Of a DNA stretch of 64,000 bases, positions 34,135 through 45,521 are shown in pieces (within the stretch, counting starts at the first letter, position 1; each line of letters begins with the position of its first letter). Position numbers and translations under genes: made by a program. This DNA is from Diprion similis (lineage: Eukaryota; Arthropoda; Insecta; Hymenoptera; Diprionidae). The DNA is taken from assembly GCF_021155765.1 (NCBI RefSeq), contig NC_060116.1, forward strand, positions 10,664,001-10,728,000, in the 5' to 3' direction. Under the pieces are notes generated by a model that saw nothing but the letters and a program-made list of their open reading frames with translations, made no database searches and was not told the origin of the DNA.

Positions 34135-36113
34135 GTATCAAACCGTACGTACAAAACTGCACATTTGATACTTTTACATTACCGTATACTTTTTAACATA
34201 ATTGATATAACAGATATAATTCTGTTGTTAATTAAATATTCATACTTGTTTTAAAATATTTCATATGATCAATCACTAGATAGTCGCTTGTACATCTAAA
34301 ACTTCTGGAGCATGTCATTATTTTGACTGTAATATGCAAAGTGAATTCGCGTTTGACGTATTCGGTAAAAATTTTGTCGTGAATAAGAAAACGTTTGCTT
34401 ACTGAAAATTGCGTATTACAATGATGATGTTATAATCATTTAAAAAAATGCAATGTCAGGAATTTCAATTTTTAAATATCAACTATGTATTGCCTTATTT
34501 TTCTGTTTTCTGCGACCAAAGGCACTTAGCGTAAACCTTTAGTTTATTATTCGTATCAATGTTTTTTTACTTAGGTCAAAGAGTCATGACCAAAAAGACA
34601 ACGGTTTAGCAAATAACTAAAAATATAAGTATTCATAATATGTACCATTCACGATGAATACTTTCTACTTATCATCATCATCCGTGAATCAACTGATGCA
34701 CCGTAGATTTTCTACATTCTGTAAAATTGAATATTATGACCTAATGAACGTCTTTTCATGCAGTAACAAAACAAGAGGTAGATTTGATCTCTTTCACAAG
34801 AGCAATGTATTATACGGCGATGTATAAACATATATATAGTAATCGTAATGTAACGTCAGATGCCATGTTTGTATCAATATGTAGAAGTAATCAATGTAAT
34901 TATCCGACGGAATTGAAATAAAAAGTACCTACTTGGTTCATAACAACGTATAATATGTATCTATATTTGGATTAACTATGAAGTCTCGATTTTATTCGTT
35001 ATAGAATGGATTATTTTCTACATGAGTCAATATTACATGTGATTTGATATACCATGGAATAAGATCGGTAGGAATATGATGTATTTATCTAATTCTATTT
35101 ACATCTCGATAACTAAGGATTATTTGATTATCATAGGTATGTACAAATTCTTTTACACAATACACATTGCCGATTCTTCGATCGCTTTCAAAGAACCATT
35201 AAGCATGTACTATTATAGTTGCATTTATTGCAGCTATCATATATTTCAAGCATATTTGTTTCAATTCACTAAATTTAAAACAATTTTTAAGTGAATGTGA
35301 CAGCAATAGAAACTGTAGAGCAAATAACAAAGCCGTTTACCAAATGATGTATAAGTGTCTACGAAATAGAGAAGCAATACAAAGTAAATCTCTGTACCTA
35401 ACAACAGATTTAAGAGATATAAAGTAACAATGGTACCCGTATGAAGTTGATCAATTTGGTTCGAAAAAACCCAAAAACTCGTCAACAGCATTACCAATCC
35501 ATGCTTGTATTGCTCAACAGCGTGTAATCTTTGCAATGCCTCAATGGCATCTTTCTTCTTTTTTTTTTTTTTATCAGAACAGATGCTCGTGTAGCTGCAG
35601 ATTGTGTTTGATTGATTTGTGGGTTGAAACTATGTGGAGTCGAGGATTAAAGAGAATTACAATATTAATGTTATATCTTAGGTACTTGCACTTTTGATAT
35701 TTAATAACTGACCATAAGTGCTATAGCATGTAGTAGGTGATTTACTATTATTTCCAATGAGAACGAATTGGTATTTAAGAAATATAATCTACATATTATT
35801 GCTTACTATTATTATTTGCATGTCAAAGTTTTCTATGCCAATGTGACATGGAAAACTTTGACATTCACGATTCGTATTACAAAACAAAAAAAAAAAAGTC
35901 TATTAAAAAGAATTACATACGATTCTAAACAGGTTTTGTACTTATTATTTAGTATCAAGGTAACAAAATTTGGATATTGAGACAAAAAAGTTTTATAGTT
36001 ATGAAAAAGAAACTAAATGTAATAACAGGAAAATATTGTTGGTAATTGTTACAATTACTAAATCCTCCAAGTAAAATCAACTGTAGACAACAAAGGCAGA
36101 AAGGAAAGGAATT
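34135..36113. other. Convergent 3' region between LAP3 and MED28
   Basis: This holds the LAP3 3' UTR and, on the right, the 3' UTR of the minus-strand MED28 gene. A candidate LAP3 polyadenylation signal, AATAAA, is at 34917-34922. I see no gene. Confidence 0.5.
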
Positions 36114-36281
36114 TTAAGTACATGGAGGAGGAGGCTGCTGTTGTTGAGAGGGAAGGGGCGCTGCGGCAGCAGCAGCATACGAAGAAGGGTCGGAAGGATC
36201 GAGGAGGGACGGTTGTGCCAAACCACGTCCCCTACCTCTGCCTCTTCCTCGACCTCTGCCTCGCCCCCTCCCTCGTCCGCG
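36114..36281 (-). other. In-frame open extension after the MED28 UGA stop (candidate readthrough tail)
   Basis: Directly after the MED28 UGA (36282-36284, minus strand) the same frame stays open for 55 codons (36281 down to 36117) and ends at a UAA (36114-36116). The first 20 residues are ten Arg-Gly pairs. LAQPSLLDPSDPSSY, six Ala, a short linker, four Gln and four Pro follow. Arg is written with CGC, CGA, CGT, AGG and AGA, and Gly with GGA, GGG, GGC and GGT, so the repeat is clean in protein but mixed in DNA. The DNA alone does not show whether it is translated. Alternatives are a 3' UTR purine-rich repeat, a UGA arising by sequence error or polymorphism, or an unseen splice form. Confidence 0.5.
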
Positions 36282-39200
36282 TCACCTTCGTCCTTCCGGC
36301 ATTCCTATATTGCTTGTAGTCTTCTCAAGGAATGCGAGTGGACCCTGTAAAGCACCACCTCCTACCCCAAAGCCTGCTCTTCCCCCACCCCCTTGTGACA
36401 TGAACATCCCTTGTTGTGCCACCGATACACCGACGCCTTGTAGACCCTGAGGTGGCGGAGCACCTGCACCTTGTTGCACCTGTAAGATTAAAATCAACAA
36501 GACTGTTTTTGAGTCCTGTTCTCAAAGTTTCGGACGAAATTGTCCTCACATATGGAGTTGAAGTTAATAACATTAACATAATGAAGCATGGAAACAAAAA
36601 TGAGTGTTTTGTAATCGTAGCATAATGTTAGATAAACCCATATTTTAAAATATGAGTATATTTTGCTTCATTATGATTTAATGAAATTTAGATAAAACTA
36701 AAAATCCTCAAGTTCAGAACAGCGATTTTTCTAACAAAAATGTAACGTTTCATTAATGTTACGAACTTCAACATCATCTTAAAATTAAACAAAAGAATGT
36801 GAACGTGTGCGGCACGGGTAAGTGAGGTGGACAGGTAGTACACCGCACACATTTTTCGTGACGTAAAATTAAAACAAGAATTTTTAAACTTTCAAGTTGA
36901 GAGCGTGTTACATTTGACTACACATTTTTTGTGGCGTAAGATTAAAACAAGAATTTTAAAACTTTCAAGTTGAGAGCGTGTTACATTTGACTACACATGC
37001 CCAAGTATAATGGAAGATGAGCATATGGTAAAACGGCACATAAAATAGAAATTGTTGCGATTTCATTTCGTTAATTCTGCGCATTTAAGATTGTTTGACG
37101 GATGTGTGATCTTTGATAACTGCACCTCTTGATTTAAGCGATAATGAAGATGAGTAAAAATACATTGCATGCATGTAGACAGACAGACAGACAGACTATG
37201 AAGCAGAGGGAACTTGGGAGCAGGCGATAGGTGGCAAGGTGAATGAAAGAAAGCACAACATTTCACCAGTAACAGAGCTTTTATTCTAAAAGATATCTAC
37301 TTGCGTGTGATGATGACATAACATAAGTAGGTAATCTATTTTCTGTTTTTATATAAAACAAATGATTTAGAGTCTACAATGAGCACAATTAGAAATTGTC
37401 AACTTTTGAAAATCGAAACAATATCAATATAGCAATTGCACAAAGATTCAATCTAATATTTCGGAAATCCTGAAGTTTCTTTTTATTCCTTGTGCAAATG
37501 CAAGTAATGTGCGTATGTACATGCAAATCGTACGTACCACCACTATCAAAACAAAGATACCTACAAATACAGATGTACGAAACTTAGATAATATTGAATA
37601 TCAACATATGAAATTACTGACATTAAAGAGCAATTATTATGGCGATGTGTAAATGATGAGACATGTGACACGAAAGAGAACATAAAAAAAAAGAAAAACA
37701 ACAATGAACAAAAACAAACAATGACTGTAAAAAGTAAACTATGAGAAACCCATATACCAAGACACAACCAGAACTAAAAAGTAAAAAGAAAGTTAACTAC
37801 TTTTTACGTGAATTGTTTACCGTCTAGTACATACTATTATAAATAATATCATGGAAGCATCATAATTTTTACTTATTCAACATTTACTTAGCTAGTATAG
37901 ATATGGAGTCACAATATATTAATAATTATTAAAATAGGGTATAATCTCTTTAGTAACAATAGGTATTGTTTTTCTGGTACAATCAACAATATCAGATAAA
38001 ATATTTCAAGAAATAAACCTTACTTTTTTAAAACACTTTATATACTGAATAATACTATTGTTCAATCTGTACTGTTTTAAATATTTCTTCACGTTATTGT
38101 TTTATTTGGCTAGATATTTGTACCTGTTTTACAACTTAATTTGGCACATATTTTCACATTTCTCTAATTATCTAATGTTATCGCTGTACATTACGATTCC
38201 GTAAATAACAATTTCTAAATTTCTTAGTTGTACCTACATTGATAGCGCTCACTCTATATCCTCATGTTTTCATTTCGTAAATTTGTAAATTTTAACTTTG
38301 TTATTAGAAAACCACCGCAGATTTACCAGTTATATATAGATGGCATACGTTTTTCATTTGGTAAAATAATAAGAGCACTTTGTGTTGGCATATAGTAAGA
38401 TTCAGGTAAGGCACTAATTCACCATGACGTGATAAAAAAAACATTTTTAATAGCCATCCCTGATCTCTCACTTGCATTTAGCCAAATTTATATGTCATAA
38501 CACTGGTAGGTAATATTCTGAATTCTTAGGCTCACATGAATGGCGTGGTGCATCTGACAGGTGAGAAATAAGGTCAGATGTTTCCCCATATTATATATTA
38601 GGTACTGATGATATTTGAATCGATCGTGTTTGTCAACAGTTCTATTATCGCGCCTATACATCACGCAATATACTACGCTTTGTGATTAGGGGGACGGAAT
38701 TAGATACTCGAGAGCAGGTAGGGAGGATCACTTCTAAGTAGATGATTCAATGTATCAGGGTTGCTAGTGTCAAAATTATTTCAAAGAAGTCAAATAAATG
38801 GATCACAAGGCCGATTGACGCGAATTAGTTATCACCTGTAAACTACAATAAAAAATGCACCGTGCCGAATGTCACAGCATTTTTGGATAGGTAAAATGGT
38901 TCCATAAATAATGACGAATTGCTTGAAAAGGTAGTATCTACTTGCAATATAGTACGCCACAATATTTTTAGGATATCTATTTTAGTACCTATCACCCGAA
39001 ACGTGATTATGATATATTTGGTAGGCACCTATTCAAAGTACTACCTATAACAATAACTAGTGGAAGAAATAAAGCATATTTGTAAAACGTCCCACAATCT
39101 TAGTAGTTTCCCAAATTCGCAGACCACGAAGCATCTAAATTGCAATAATTTTTGTGAACCTTAGATTTTTAGATTTTAGATTTAGATTTATTGACATCAT

Positions 39201-42200
39201 ATTTTTTTTTTTGTATTTACATATAATTCTCAGTTCTCCAAGCCTGAGCATCTTATTACGCTTGTGTGGCTGGAGTTGCTTTTTTTTACCTAGTGACAAC
39301 TTGTCACTCAATTTCCTAAATTACAATTTATTTGCGTGATTGTGTGCTTGCATTTGAGTCATTCTCATCCGCACCTGATAATTTACTGTATTACGCAGAT
39401 TAATTATTTCTACTTGTTATTCAATCATCACATTATACTTATTTCCAAATTTATACCTAATTAGTTATTGATACTTATTTATTTGTTTACACGTGTAACA
39501 AAAAACATTTAGAACCTCGAGAGTACTTCTATATTCCTATCGAGTCTTTTCATTCACTGTTTTTCTAGGTGTTAGTCAGTTCATTATAGTACATTCTTCC
39601 CTGCTGTAAGATCCAAGTACCAATACTTTTTTTGAAACCCTGTATACATTTTTGCTTTATTTTTAATGGAATTTCATTATACAGCTTGTTTATAATTACT
39701 TTTTCCTGTCTGTGCCCAATTGCTGTTTTAGTTTTTGGCAGTGTGAGGTTTCCTCGTGTCCTGGCTCTGGTGTCATGTTCGTGGGTGTGCTTTCTTTGTT
39801 TTATTTCTTCTGGATTCCGTTTAAGACGCACTAGTGCGTTCTTCATGTATGCCTGGCGTATGTCTGGTATCTTTGTGGTGGCAAACAGCATATCACTTGG
39901 GTAATACCTAGGTTTCCAAAAGGCTATTCGTAGTATCATTTTTTGTATTATTTCTAGTGGTTTTAAATTCTTTTGGTATGCATTTCCCCATGCTATTATT
40001 CCGTATTCGATAATGAAGTGTACTAGAGCATAATAGATTTTCCTCATCGTGTCCTGGGTTACAATGGATCTGATATTGAGCAGCGTGTGAATTGTTTGTC
40101 GTAGTCTGGCTGCTGTTTGTTTTATGTGTTCAGTCCACTTCATTCTTTCATCGATCGTGACACCCAGGTATTTGATGTGTTCCTTTATTTCTATTTCTTG
40201 GCAGCCGCATCCTGGTTCATCTTTTCCGCAGGTGTGTATTTTCAGATTCAGGAATTCACTGTCCTCAGGATCTTTGATTTTATTAATTTTATACCGCGTA
40301 TACTTTGTTTTGTTCCCATTCAGGGTTAGTTTGTGATTGTCTAGCCACTTCTTCATTTTTGCCATATCCGTGTTCGCTTTTCTATAAACCTCCTTCCAGT
40401 CATTTCCTGTCGTAATTATTACCGTGTCATCTGCGTAGGCTATCATTTCTGATTCTATCTTCATTTTGCAGAGATCGTTGGTGTACACAATATACAATAT
40501 TGCTCCAAGTACAGACCCTTGTGGGACGCCCGTTGTTATTACGCCTGCTTTGCTATTTCTGTCCCCGATCCTTGTTTTTTGTTGTCTGTTCCCGAGGTAG
40601 CTTCCAAACCATTTATTCGCTATTCCTCTGATGCCCATTTTCTCTAGTTTTCGGAGCAAGATGTTATGTTGTACTGTATCGAAGGCTTTCGATAGATCCA
40701 GGTATGTGGCAATGGTTTTGGTTCCTTGGTCGAGGTTGCTCGTAATACGATTCGTGAGTGTGTATATCGCATCCTGTGTACTCTTATTCACTCTGAATCC
40801 GTACTGGGTATTTAAGAGGATGTTGTTTTTTTCAAAGAACTCTATTAGCCTGTTTTTTATGCATTTTTCTAGGATCTTACTTATGCTGCTTATGAGCGAT
40901 ATAGGTCTGTAGTTTGTTACATCTGTTTTTTCACCGGCTTTATATACTGGTATTACTATGCTTGTTTTTAATTGCTCTGGGAAGGTTCCAATTGATATGC
41001 TTCGATTGAAGATGCATTCTAGTGGTTTCACAACGTATTCGATGGTTGATTTTAATAACTCCGCCTTTATTCCATCTTCTCCCGGTGCTGCGTGTGACTT
41101 CATCTGCGTTATATGTCTTCTTATTTCCGATTCCGTTATAGGTGATAGATATATCGATTTCTGTGCTTTCCCCTTTACTTTCTCGTCATTTCCAATCGGA
41201 TGGGTTGGTATTTCATTTGTTAAATGCTTTCCAATAGAGAGGAAGTAGTGATTGAAGGTGTTTGCTATTCGTTCCTCATTTGTTTCAATTTCTTGTTGGC
41301 CTTCGAGTTTTAACCTTATTTTGCTTGCTTCCTCCTTTTTTTGTTCTTGAATTTTGTTTTCTCTAATTACTTTCCATATTCGTTTTTGATGGTTTCCGGC
41401 TGCCTTTATTTGCTTCCTGTAATATTCAGTTTTTGTTTTGTCTATTAACTTTACTAGCGTTTTGCGGTACATTTTGTATTCCATTTGTAGATCCGAATTG
41501 AAAGGCTCTCTTCTTGCTTTTTTGGCGAGCTTGTTTCTTTGTCGTATTGCTCTGACGAGACCATTTGTTACCCACGGCTTCAACTTTGTCGTTCTATTAT
41601 TGGTCGTTATTGTTATTTTTTTGGTAGCCTCCTCGACCGCTTTCTGCAGAGTGGTAATTAGGTTTTTGGTAGCTTTTTCTAGGTCTTGTTCGTTCAGCAC
41701 ATTTTCCCATTTTTCTTTTTCAATTATTTCTGTTACTTTGTTGTAGTCGACTTTGTTCACATGTATTGTCCTTGTCCTATCCATACTTGTTTTTCCTATT
41801 TGTAGTATAGTTGTATAGTGGTCAGTAATTGTCGTTTTTATTACACATAGCTGCTACGTATCCATGCATGCTGAGAACATTGAGGTATTCTTCTCCATCG
41901 ATGGCATTACTGCCGGACTTGATATCTATGTTTATATCCCCTGCCATGATTGCCGTTTTTGTTGTGCCTTCTCCCAATTCCTGGTCCAAGCTTTCGATGA
42001 ATTTCTTCAGATTTCCGGATGGGGATCTGTAGATCGCGTAGATTTCAATGGTCTCTTGAGTGGTTTTCAAAATTAATCTGATTCCATTGGCTTCTTCGAT
42101 GTTCAGTTGTGCGTCATAAGCTTCTAAATTTTTGTGAACCAGTACAACAATTCCGTCATTATCAGATATCCTACTGTTGGCCCAAAAAGCTGTGTAATCT

Positions 42201-45200
42201 TTGTATTTCCACAAATCTTGTTTAGAGTTGATCCATGTTTCTGTAAAAATTATTAGGTCCATTTGTATTCTTATATCTTGTAACATCAAATGAATTTCGT
42301 CCATGTGTCTCCGCAGGCTTCTTGTGTTCATTTGGAGTACATTTATACCTTGTTCTTCTGTTATTATTTTTCGAAGAGATTCAGTGTCTTCACATGTGTA
42401 ATTTTTTATCTGTTTAATTTCCTGTATATATTCGTTCCACGTAGCCATATTTATCATTTCTAGTGTTTTGTATTGTTTGCTGTGTACTTTGGTGTTCATA
42501 GATCCTATTCTGCGGTGTTTTCTATCGGCTGCGCTAAGTTCGCCAAGTCTATGTGGTGTTTTATCTGAAGAGTTTTTTCGCCCTCATCTTTGCGCATAAG
42601 TACATTTCCATCTTTGATCCATACATATTTATAACGTTTTTCCCTCGCAAACATCTTGGCCAAGTACAGTAGTCGTTTTTTTGCAGGTGTAAGCGCTTCG
42701 TTTATATACACTGCTGTCTCCGGAAAGCCCGTATATACGTCCTTGGCTTTAATCCCCCTTTTCACTTTGGCGCGCTCTAGCCAGGTATTTCGAGCATTGA
42801 CGGTGTTGAGTTTAATTATTATCGGCCGAGCTCCAGTTGTTTTTGGTGGTCGATAGATGTCCTGTATTGTCTTGGTATCCAGCTCGATATCTATTAGCTT
42901 TGCGACGTTGCAGACTATCGCTTGTAGATTTTCATTCCTGGTTACAGGCACTCCGCAAATTTCGATCTCTGACAGCTTGAGTTTCTGTTCCAGTTCTTCT
43001 AGTTTAGCTTCCATGAAGTCCAGCTTATCGTCGGCCTCTTTTGATTTTTTCTGCAGCTTGTGAACTTCTTTCTGTAATAGTGCGTTCTCCTTGCTTAGAT
43101 TGGCAGTTGTTTTGAAGAATTCGTCAATTTTGTTAGAGCAAAAATTCATAGCTTCCTCGATAGTTGCTATACTATTTTTGAGCTTCTTAACTTCCTGGCT
43201 GTTGTTATCTAAAGCCTTGTTGTTGGTGTCCAGTGCTTCTTTAATTGGTTGTAATTCATCAATCTTTTTATTGATGCCAGCTACATACGTTCGAATGTCG
43301 TGTTGATCGGTGACAGTTTGTCTGCTTCTTGGAGCAATGTTGACAGCTCCTTCTTCACCACTCGACGGTTGATCGCCAGCACTGACATAATGTTCTTCAC
43401 ATTTCTCACATGTGAATTTCAAGAGTTTTTTGGCCGGATCCTGTATATTCATGTTCTTTTTGGCACATGTAACATGAAACACACGTTTACATTTTTGGTC
43501 GCAGTTAAGAAAATCGCTTGTTTTGTTCACTAAATTTTTGCACAAACCACACTGTTTCGCCATCGTGGTTAGCCTTAATGAATTACTTATTGTGAACATG
43601 TAGCCACAAAATATTTTTCATGTAATCAATCTTTAGTCTGACATTGAAATAGAGTCAAGATATCATACGACTCAGTTGCTGACAATAGCTATAATATAAA
43701 TAAAAGTATTTCTAGGTGGTAAAACTATTCTTTGTTACAAAATCGAGTAAAAAAAAAAAAAACATAGTTGCCTTTATAAATATAATGCCAAAGCCAAAGC
43801 TTGGAGATGATACTGAGTAATACAAACCTAAGCAAATAATACTCTCCAAATATTTGTGAAATAAATTCCTATTTACAAAAACTAGATTAGGTAATAAATG
43901 AAGGCCTCATCAAGTGACAAGAGATATTAACAGTCGTGCAGCCTGTACTTGAAACAGTTGATCTTTGCGCAAATTTCATACAATATACATAATAGCACTC
44001 ACATTCTACGGAATGCCCATGTTTAAAAACTTCGGCAGTATTAAAATACTAAAATGTTTCTTTTTAAATAAATGTTATCTAAAATACTCGTTTGTGATCA
44101 AATGTACAGGTAACGTTCAGCCACAAATAATTGATAGTAATGTGTCGTGTCGACATCAAATCAAGATGTTGGAAAGTCTCACTGTCAAAATTTTCTGACT
44201 TGCATCCAGTGTTGACTCGGCATCAATGTGATACGCTCATTATTACTGTTTGTAATAATATACACAATACTCAATATTGTACCGTTAAAAACAAACAATA
44301 TCAGTCAGTTATTTGGTGCTTAATATATATATTTTCCATCAGAAGTGTGTAAACTTGAGTCGCATTAACAATATATTAACGTTACTTAAATACCTGTTGT
44401 TGATGGAGTTGTTGCTGCTGCAGTTGATGCTGCTGTATCTGTTGCAGTTGCTGTTGTTGCTGGAGTTGTTGTTGATGCTGTAACAACTGTTGCTGCTGCT
44501 GTTGCTGCTGCTGTTGCTGTTGTTGTTGCTGCTGCTGTTGCAATACGGGCCCTCCACTTCCATTACCAGGTGGTTGGGGCTGAACTCCACTGCCATTTGC
44601 CAGTCCTACGATATTAATAAGAAATCAGCTCTTTTAAATGTCAATGTGGATATGAAATAATGAAAGGTAACACTGAGGTTTGAATTTATTTTGCTATTCA
44701 GATTTATCAAGAGATAATAATGAAGAAATTTCTATTTTTTTTTTTTTTTTTTTTTCTATTCTTTCAGAGCTCGAGGGTATGCATAATATATTTCAGTGTC
44801 AGAAAAAAATTATTACTCATCAATTTCATATCTCATTTCAGTAGAACTACACGAAGTTTTGTAAACTCACCATTGGGCGCAGGTCCTTGTACCGGCGATT
44901 TGGCCCAGCCTTGTAAATCCGCTAGCAAATTTTGCCATATGGCAATTTTATCATAATGCCTCTTGATCAGTTCATCTTTCCTAACAAGTTCTACTTTCAG
45001 GTCATTTATGTCTTCCTTGACAACCAACTCAGGCTTCAAAGCGGACAGCAAGAAACGTTTTTGTAAGAAAAATGCTTCCATTTGCCGAGCGAGGTCTATG
45101 AATCTCAAAGTAACTTGTTCAACTTCTCCTCGTGCCTCGTCTTTGTCAACAGCTAGACCTGCGCCTACGCTGTTATTCCCGAGGCTTTCATCCTTTGTCA

Positions 45201-45521
45201 AGATATTCAGACATTGCTGAAAGCGAATTCGAAATTATGCACAAATGCCAAGACATACATTTTTAGTGAGCATTGAGGTTGTTCGATAAATTTTGGTTCA
45301 AATTTTGTTTGCATTTTTTGCCACTTTTCATCATGACTTAGTAATGCGTGAACAGATAGTGCATTATTTGTGAATATATCCTAAGAGAATGAATAGCAGT
45401 TTTTAGAGTGGATAGACTTTTGTAGGTTGGAATAATGACAATTAAATGTTATTGCAATAACCTGAAATGCTTCTTCGAATTCGTCGACCAGATTTCCATT
45501 GCCGTTTGTCGGAGTAGCCAT
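36282..45521 (-). CDS. MED28: Mediator complex subunit 28 (MED28) with Q-rich insertion
   Basis: MED28 is a head-module-associated subunit of the Mediator transcription co-activator in the nucleus. Reading on the minus strand, four exons (45521-45462, 45216-44871, 44605-44394, 36479-36282) join in phase to give 271 residues. The start NGNLVDEFEEAFQQCL and the helical core FIDLARQMEAFFLQKRFLL with LIKRHYDKIAIWQNLLADL are family signatures. The ending QGPLAFLEKTTSNIGMPE corresponds to QGSLAYLEQASANI near the human C-terminus, so the UGA here matches the expected end of the protein. Between core and end lies a Q-rich insertion of about 70 residues, including 18 consecutive Gln (44487-44540), which vertebrate MED28 (about 178 residues) lacks. 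The last intron is 7.9 kb and contains a LINE. The frame continues after the UGA. The neighbour at 46370 is divergent. Confidence 0.93.
36847..36999. repeat. Two-copy tandem repeat of 73 bases in the MED28 intron
   Basis: A unit of 73 bases starting ACACATTTTT at 36847 is repeated from 36920 to 36992 with a few changes, and a third copy begins (ACACATG) before homology stops. Both units contain GTGACG/GTGGCG, AAAACAAGAATTTT and TTCAAGTTGAGAGCGTGTTA. Part of the unit may be transposon-derived, but I see no coding content. Confidence 0.85.
37177..37196 (+). repeat. (AGAC)5 microsatellite
   Basis: Five perfect AGAC units sit in the MED28 intron. Confidence 0.9.
39565..41784 (-). pseudogene. LINE ORF2, reverse transcriptase part
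   Basis: This open stretch of 739 codons carries a complete non-LTR reverse transcriptase. It has NYRPISLISSISKILEK, QYGFRVNKSTQDAI, ATYLDLSKAFDTV, TGVPQGSVLGAILY and the catalytic YADDTV box. The downstream thumb region (KYLGVTIDERMKW) and a C-terminal tail follow. The frame itself has no internal stop, so the damage is confined to the junction with the endonuclease. The intact RT frame suggests a fairly recent insertion. Confidence 0.88.
41822..42499 (-). pseudogene. LINE ORF2, apurinic/apyrimidinic endonuclease part (truncated by frame break)
   Basis: This is the 225-residue N-terminal section of ORF2. Endonuclease motifs are visible in order: LQMNTRSL (metal-binding Asn region), FTETWIN (catalytic Glu), IYRSPSG and AGDINID (Asp and Asn). 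It ends abruptly at a TGA after NKNDNY. The final endonuclease motif (T/S-D-H, here ITDHYTT) appears only in the neighbouring frame, right at the break. The section normally holding the CIDHI-type motif seems to be missing, so a deletion with a frame change has inactivated ORF2. Confidence 0.8.
42505..43563 (-). CDS. LINE ORF1 protein: PHD-like zinc finger, coiled coil, FP-like C-terminal domain
   Basis: This is the nucleic-acid-binding ORF1 of the LINE. I start it at the Met beginning MAKQCGLC, because an upstream in-frame Met at 43599 adds only twelve residues with no motif. An N-terminal Cys/His cluster (CGLC, NCDQKC, FHVTC, FTCEKC) is arranged like a PHD finger. A long Lys/Glu-rich coiled coil follows. 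A C-terminal part (IYRPPKTTGARPIIIKLN through KKRLLYLAKMFAREKRYKYVW) resembles the FP/L1-type RNA-binding domain seen in many insect retroelement ORF1 proteins. The frame is intact at about 352 residues. It stops five bases before the ORF2 ATG, so ORF2 was probably translated by reinitiation. Confidence 0.8.
   Translation of the reverse strand: MAKQCGLCKNLVNKTSDFLNCDQKCKRVFHVTCAKKNMNIQDPAKKLLKFTCEKCEEHYVSAGDQPSSGEEGAVNIAPRSRQTVTDQHDIRTYVAGINKKIDELQPIKEALDTNNKALDNNSQEVKKLKNSIATIEEAMNFCSNKIDEFFKTTANLSKENALLQKEVHKLQKKSKEADDKLDFMEAKLEELEQKLKLSEIEICGVPVTRNENLQAIVCNVAKLIDIELDTKTIQDIYRPPKTTGARPIIIKLNTVNARNTWLERAKVKRGIKAKDVYTGFPETAVYINEALTPAKKRLLYLAKMFAREKRYKYVWIKDGNVLMRKDEGEKTLQIKHHIDLANLAQPIENTAE
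43611..44393 (-). other. MED28 last intron, portion 5' of the LINE
   Basis: This is AT-rich intron sequence between the Q-rich exon donor and the LINE 5' region. No gene is visible. Confidence 0.6.
44487..44540 (-). repeat. CAG/CAA repeat encoding 18 glutamines in MED28
   Basis: Eighteen consecutive Gln codons, mixed CAG and CAA, lie in the third coding exon and are followed by further Q-rich sequence. Codon mixing makes slippage less likely than in a pure CAG run. Confidence 0.9.

Follow-up and report, generated by a model that had tools for sequence, protein, structure and literature searches.

The MED28 gene of the hymenopteran Diprion similis carries, directly behind its UGA stop codon, a second open frame of 55 codons in the same register, and we think it rather probable that this gene undergoes functional UGA readthrough and produces a minor isoform with an Arg-Gly-rich tail. 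The gene is located in a 64,000-nucleotide stretch of contig NC_060116.1 (positions 10,664,001 to 10,728,000), here called the window, to which all coordinates refer unless a genome contig is given (Table 1). Both the passage of ribosomes through the UGA and a function of the tail are inferred from the DNA sequence, and the specific role suggested below from the composition of the tail is a guess.

Table 1. Features of the MED28 locus in window coordinates
Feature	Position	Strand	Basis
MED28 exon 1, coding part (MATPTNGNGNLVDEFEEAFQ)	45462..45521	-	gene model, donor CAG/gttatt
MED28 exon 2, conserved Med28 domain	44871..45216	-	Pfam PF11594, E 3e-30; splice sites
MED28 exon 3, Gln-rich	44394..44605	-	splice sites and frame; codons
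MED28 exon 4, coding part including TGA, ending LQGPLAFLEKTTSNIGMPEGRR before the stop	36282..36479	-	gene model; C-terminus match to two mammalian MED28 chains
MED28 first stop TGA, then C (UGA-C)	36282..36284	-	C at 36281
(Arg-Gly)10 array, ten units comprising nine distinct hexamers	36222..36281	-	codon tally
Remainder of second open frame, 35 codons: LAQPSLLDPSDPSSYAAAAAAPLPSQQQQPPPPCT	36117..36221	-	GC by codon position
Second stop TAA	36114..36116	-	end of 55-codon open frame
LINE-type retrotransposon in last MED28 intron	39565-43617	-	separate open frames
Retrotransposon ORF1, PHD and Baculo_FP-like domains	42505-43617	-	open frame
Retrotransposon endonuclease part	41822-42583	-	open frame
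Retrotransposon reverse transcriptase part	39565-41853	-	open frame

MED28 is encoded on the minus strand by four coding exons with GT-AG borders, which together form a single continuous frame of 271 residues. Its identity is established by a match to PF11594 (105 bits; cut-off, 29) and by matches to MED28 chains in the PDB, and the locus is the sole Med28-family match reported in our genome search. The acceptor of exon 4 reads tcttacag, with the exon starting at position 36479. Scanning the exon 4 protein, taken without the tail, against viral and genome contig collections returned no relative. Exon 3 contains a long Gln tract, and the whole coding sequence has 57 Gln codons (33 CAA, 24 CAG). 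The last intron spans ~7.9 kb and harbors a LINE-type retrotransposon on the same strand as MED28. On the other side of the extension, about 245-300 nt past the TAA, the minus strand forms a near-perfect short hairpin (35812-35870; MFE -24.5 kcal/mol, z -6.3), for which no further genome match and only sub-threshold Rfam miRNA hits were found.

We compared the end of the window protein to mammalian MED28. Its C-terminus aligns to the PDB chains 7emf_1 and 8t1i_W (178 residues each), which we take to be the human and mouse proteins, the listing giving the subunit name only. The last aligned residue in both chains is Pro-174, located four residues from their end, and the window protein likewise ends four residues past the matching proline. 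The alignment covers 18 residues without gaps, with 9/18 identities to 7emf_1 and 10/18 to 8t1i_W, and was equalled by none of 20,000 shuffles of the window C-terminus for either chain. This match appears only with a query joined to exon 2 and thus rests on the joined query and the shuffle test; the 25-residue C-terminus alone matched no PDB sequence at E values up to 10. A published survey found that the termini of MED28 lack conservation across Metazoa (PMC5464003), so the C-terminal end has been retained in some lineages only. Because the UGA coincides with the mammalian C-terminus, it is most simply seen as an inherited, old stop.

Downstream of the UGA, the frame stays open from position 36281 to 36117 and translates into (RG)10-LAQPSLLDPSDPSSY-A6-PLPS-Q4-P4-CT. 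These features agree with the original prediction, which had placed a UGA followed by C at the human C-terminus and described 55 in-frame codons up to a UAA, ten Arg-Gly pairs followed by Ala6, Gln4 and Pro4 tracts, and a mixture of five Arg and four Gly codons; our tally returned the same codon count. The predicted range of 36114..36484 contains the feature, as stated, and at its upper end extends five bases into the intron. The stop context was also said to be comparatively leaky, and TGA followed by C is the context described as favored for readthrough in PMC5100048. No Pfam family scored above its cut-off on the tail. The word CAGCAGCA is reported in PMC5100048 to be enriched near readthrough stops. 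It occurs twice within 250 nt upstream of the MED28 stop and not in the tail, and we gave it no weight because the upstream copies lie in the exon 3 Gln tract.

We next asked whether the second frame looks coding. Its openness is uninformative, as dinucleotide shuffling of the extension left the frame open in 1376 of 5000 cases and 399 of 6747 stop triplets, counted on both strands of the whole window, precede at least 55 open codons. An open frame is too common in this GC-rich stretch, and we rejected it as evidence. The ten RG hexamers deviate from the majority base of their column 16 times (5, 0, 4, 0, 0 and 7 at positions 1-6), and every one of these deviations preserves Arg-Gly. In simple models of neutral decay, with uniform sites and transitions at half weight, pure hexamer arrays taken to the same divergence retained all ten RG units in 0 of 20,000 runs, the number of units kept ranging from 0 to 7 and the maximum of 7 being reached in 18 runs. 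A conservative count, which lets the array grow by duplication of units that had diverged before, places the nine distinct units on a minimum spanning tree and requires 10 changes, all of which would keep Arg-Gly with a probability of ~1e-5. Read in all six frames, the array is most uniform in the RG frame and less so in the antisense frames, which speaks against an antisense gene as the source of the pattern; four of the other five frames contain no stop.

The coding-like pattern continues past the array, where the remaining 35 codons have GC contents of 0.74, 0.66 and 0.40 at the three codon positions, a contrast reached in 45 of 20,000 shuffles. Measured along the strand in 50-nt steps, GC content rises from 0.32 in the intron to 0.46-0.62 within exon 4 and 0.60-0.70 over the initial 150 nt past the UGA; it is 0.40 in the step spanning the TAA and 0.18-0.36 in steps starting ~30 nt beyond it. 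The drop is thus located at the TAA and not at the UGA. In the 150 nt past the stop, GC content is 0.65 for MED28 versus 0.24-0.36 for four other window genes, whose stops were taken from open reading frames and whose second frames measure 1, 1, 39 and 17 codons. These single-genome tests reveal a coding signature between the first and the second stop. Protein-level constraint on the downstream frame holds as judged from one genome, and with it the earlier suggestion that selection acts on the protein more than on a DNA repeat, given the synonymous-only variation of the RG units and the codon-position bias.

Arg-Gly repeats elsewhere in the genome provide a comparison. Searching the genome with the tail peptide yielded 14 matches including the window itself; nine other loci were scanned and four were left out. 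Five of the nine carry at least four in-frame RG units, each locus with one or two distinct units, and four have none that long. By sequence, whether coding or not, the five are nearly pure DNA repeats, in which a single hexamer recurs up to 45 times. One of them, L005 (near genome C5:3798877-3798978), consists of 45 identical AGAGGG units that read Arg-Gly in one frame, and serves as a control repeat. In the LSM family, 4 of 13 loci have frames with at least four RG or GR; three were tallied, all of them codon-mixed, with Arg codon entropies of 1.52-2.12 bits compared to 2.17 for MED28, and the fourth (L014), which has scattered Arg-Gly only, was left out of the tally. Two of the LSM-family loci are presumably SmD3 and LSM4, and we read the RG stretches as their coding tails. 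A fibrillarin Gly-Arg domain is also present, viewed at the protein level only. Like the MED28 tail, the Sm/LSM tails are Arg-Gly-rich, with mixed codons at the three LSM-family matches, but they lie in the main frame, whereas the MED28 tail lies past a UGA. The RG repeats of Sm proteins are known for arginine methylation and for Tudor binding. Synonymous-only variation inside an amino-acid repeat is a test that can be applied to a single genome, without relatives, and helps to distinguish coding tails from DNA repeats.

The strongest rival to readthrough holds that the stop is of recent or allelic origin or reflects an error. Here, the tail would once have become ordinary coding sequence by ancestral stop loss, the UGA would have arisen lately by nonsense mutation or would be an allelic variant or an error of the assembly, and readthrough would not be needed; the coding signature would be a relic, or real in other individuals. 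The TGA is indeed a single base change away from GGA, which would extend the Arg-Gly array in register, and a recent nonsense change leaves the same signature, such cases being excluded with the help of relatives in PMC5100048. The weak point is that this new stop would have to fall by chance exactly on the old C-terminus shared with the mammalian chains, for which we estimate ~1/56 over about 56 codons. In addition, the region was matched once in the assembly, and no second haplotype was seen. We regard a new stop as rather unlikely. A non-coding origin, with the extension being a 3'UTR repeat of GC-rich hexamers whose frame is open by chance, would be compatible with the frequent openness of shuffled extensions, with the stop-free alternative frames over the array and with the nearly pure RG-type hexamer repeats found elsewhere in the genome. 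It appears highly improbable, as every departure within the RG units keeps Arg-Gly, the codon-position bias is also seen outside the RG part, and the GC block and the open frame both end at the TAA.

The UGA could also be removed at the RNA level, either by A-to-I editing to UGG or by a splice form that skips it, and we consider this route improbable. Editing would replace the stop by Trp in the same frame, but a G immediately 5' of the A, as found here, is a poor context for A-to-I editing. A donor-like sequence (AAG/gtgacg) does overlap the MED28 stop, but a same-frame tail lacking the UGA requires a splice acceptor inside the RG array. We found no plausible one there: all 11 AGs are located in purine-rich runs with upstream pyrimidine fractions of 0.12-0.25, compared to 0.62-0.69 for the three real MED28 acceptors, and the three pyrimidine-rich AGs past the TGA sit beyond the array. 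The 55-codon extension contains no Met codon and hence no in-frame AUG. Insertion of selenocysteine at the UGA would find some support in the SepSecS gene present in the genome, but the nine tRNA-Sec hits are all below the cut-off, with a tRNA-Ser gene at the matching position in the six hit loci examined, and Rfam detects no SECIS element in 35500-36600, so that both elements of a selenoprotein search were negative. The honey bee likewise retains SecS and is described as being without tRNA-Sec, EFsec and pstk (PMC2500217). We give selenocysteine next to no credence at this stop. Alternative splicing, initiation at a downstream AUG and selenocysteine insertion are, on these sequence features, all unlikely routes to the tail.

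We also considered RNA structure as a stimulator of readthrough. The region past the stop folds with a z score of -2.0, 6 of 200 dinucleotide shuffles being as stable. With the protein fixed, the folding is unexceptional (836, 789 and 234 of 1000 synonymous permutations are as stable for the first 60, 100 and 165 nt, respectively), and we make no claim for downstream structure as a stimulator, since the signal vanishes when codons are permuted within the protein. Stimulatory structures are predicted in about 9-10% of insect readthrough candidates and are not required.

Readthrough stops are well documented in insects. Flies and mosquitoes are reported to have hundreds of them (PMC5100048). Bumblebees have 851 candidates, of which at least 306 were judged functional (PMC7826183), while the honey bee failed the single-genome abundance test of PMC5100048. 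The functional readthrough genes of Drosophila, Anopheles and bumblebees described in these two papers share with MED28 the TGA-C context and a coding-like second frame; in contrast, the evidence for MED28 comes from one genome and its stop has been compared with mammals only. Drosophila Dfr/Vvl (PMC8417969) is, like MED28, a transcription regulator with a disordered, low-complexity readthrough tail, but its stop is UAG and its tail has 286 residues and was demonstrated by antibodies and mass spectrometry, whereas the MED28 tail follows a UGA, has 55 residues, is RG-rich and is predicted. In Hymenoptera, and in two paraneopteran species with a retained Sec machinery, SPS1 genes with a UGA followed by GGGUGY are known, and the hymenopteran SPS1-UGA is argued to undergo readthrough without Sec (PMC4561486), similar to what we propose for MED28. 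Our genome has such an SPS1 gene, with an in-frame TGA followed by GGGTGY (locus L033, genome C10, minus-strand position 940 of the locus). The two cases differ in that the SPS1 UGA is located inside the main protein, precedes GGGUGY and overlaps an RNA structure, whereas MED28 has UGA-CGC at its end and an unexceptional structure. A second SelD-like gene (L030, genome C9:7381159-7381860) forms a single 414-codon open frame in which RGKGMK replaces the UGA motif, and looks like an intronless SPS1 copy that lost the UGA.

Literature searches returned no report of MED28 readthrough, as judged by title and start of abstract, and did not find the C-terminus peptide strings; queries combining Mediator with readthrough, or readthrough with RGG and arginine methylation, gave no title on a Mediator tail. 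Functional readthrough of MED28 would explain the position of the stop, its leaky context, the coding pattern behind it and why the GC-rich block stops at the TAA. In such a mechanism, ribosomes would in a fraction of cases decode the UGA-C stop of the MED28 mRNA with a near-cognate tRNA, and the resulting minor isoform would end in 55 additional residues of low complexity, in which ten Arg-Gly repeats are followed by a Pro/Ser/Ala/Gln-rich end. The RG tail would likely allow for RNA binding and/or arginine methylation, as in the RG repeats of Sm proteins, and may provide Mediator or free MED28 with an RNA- or condensate-binding handle. More tentatively, and as a less likely possibility, two forms of this core Mediator subunit could exist in these insects, the long one being made by regulated UGA readthrough, with an uninterrupted, methylated (RG)10 array tying Mediator or cytoplasmic MED28 to RNA and termination efficiency tuning the contact between Mediator and RNA.

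The MED28 case is probably a further example of insect readthrough, a known phenomenon. For most readthrough tails of flies, mosquitoes and bumblebees no function is, in our judgement, apparent; here, a Mediator subunit would acquire an unbroken run of ten Arg-Gly repeats, which suggests a role in RNA binding and arginine methylation.
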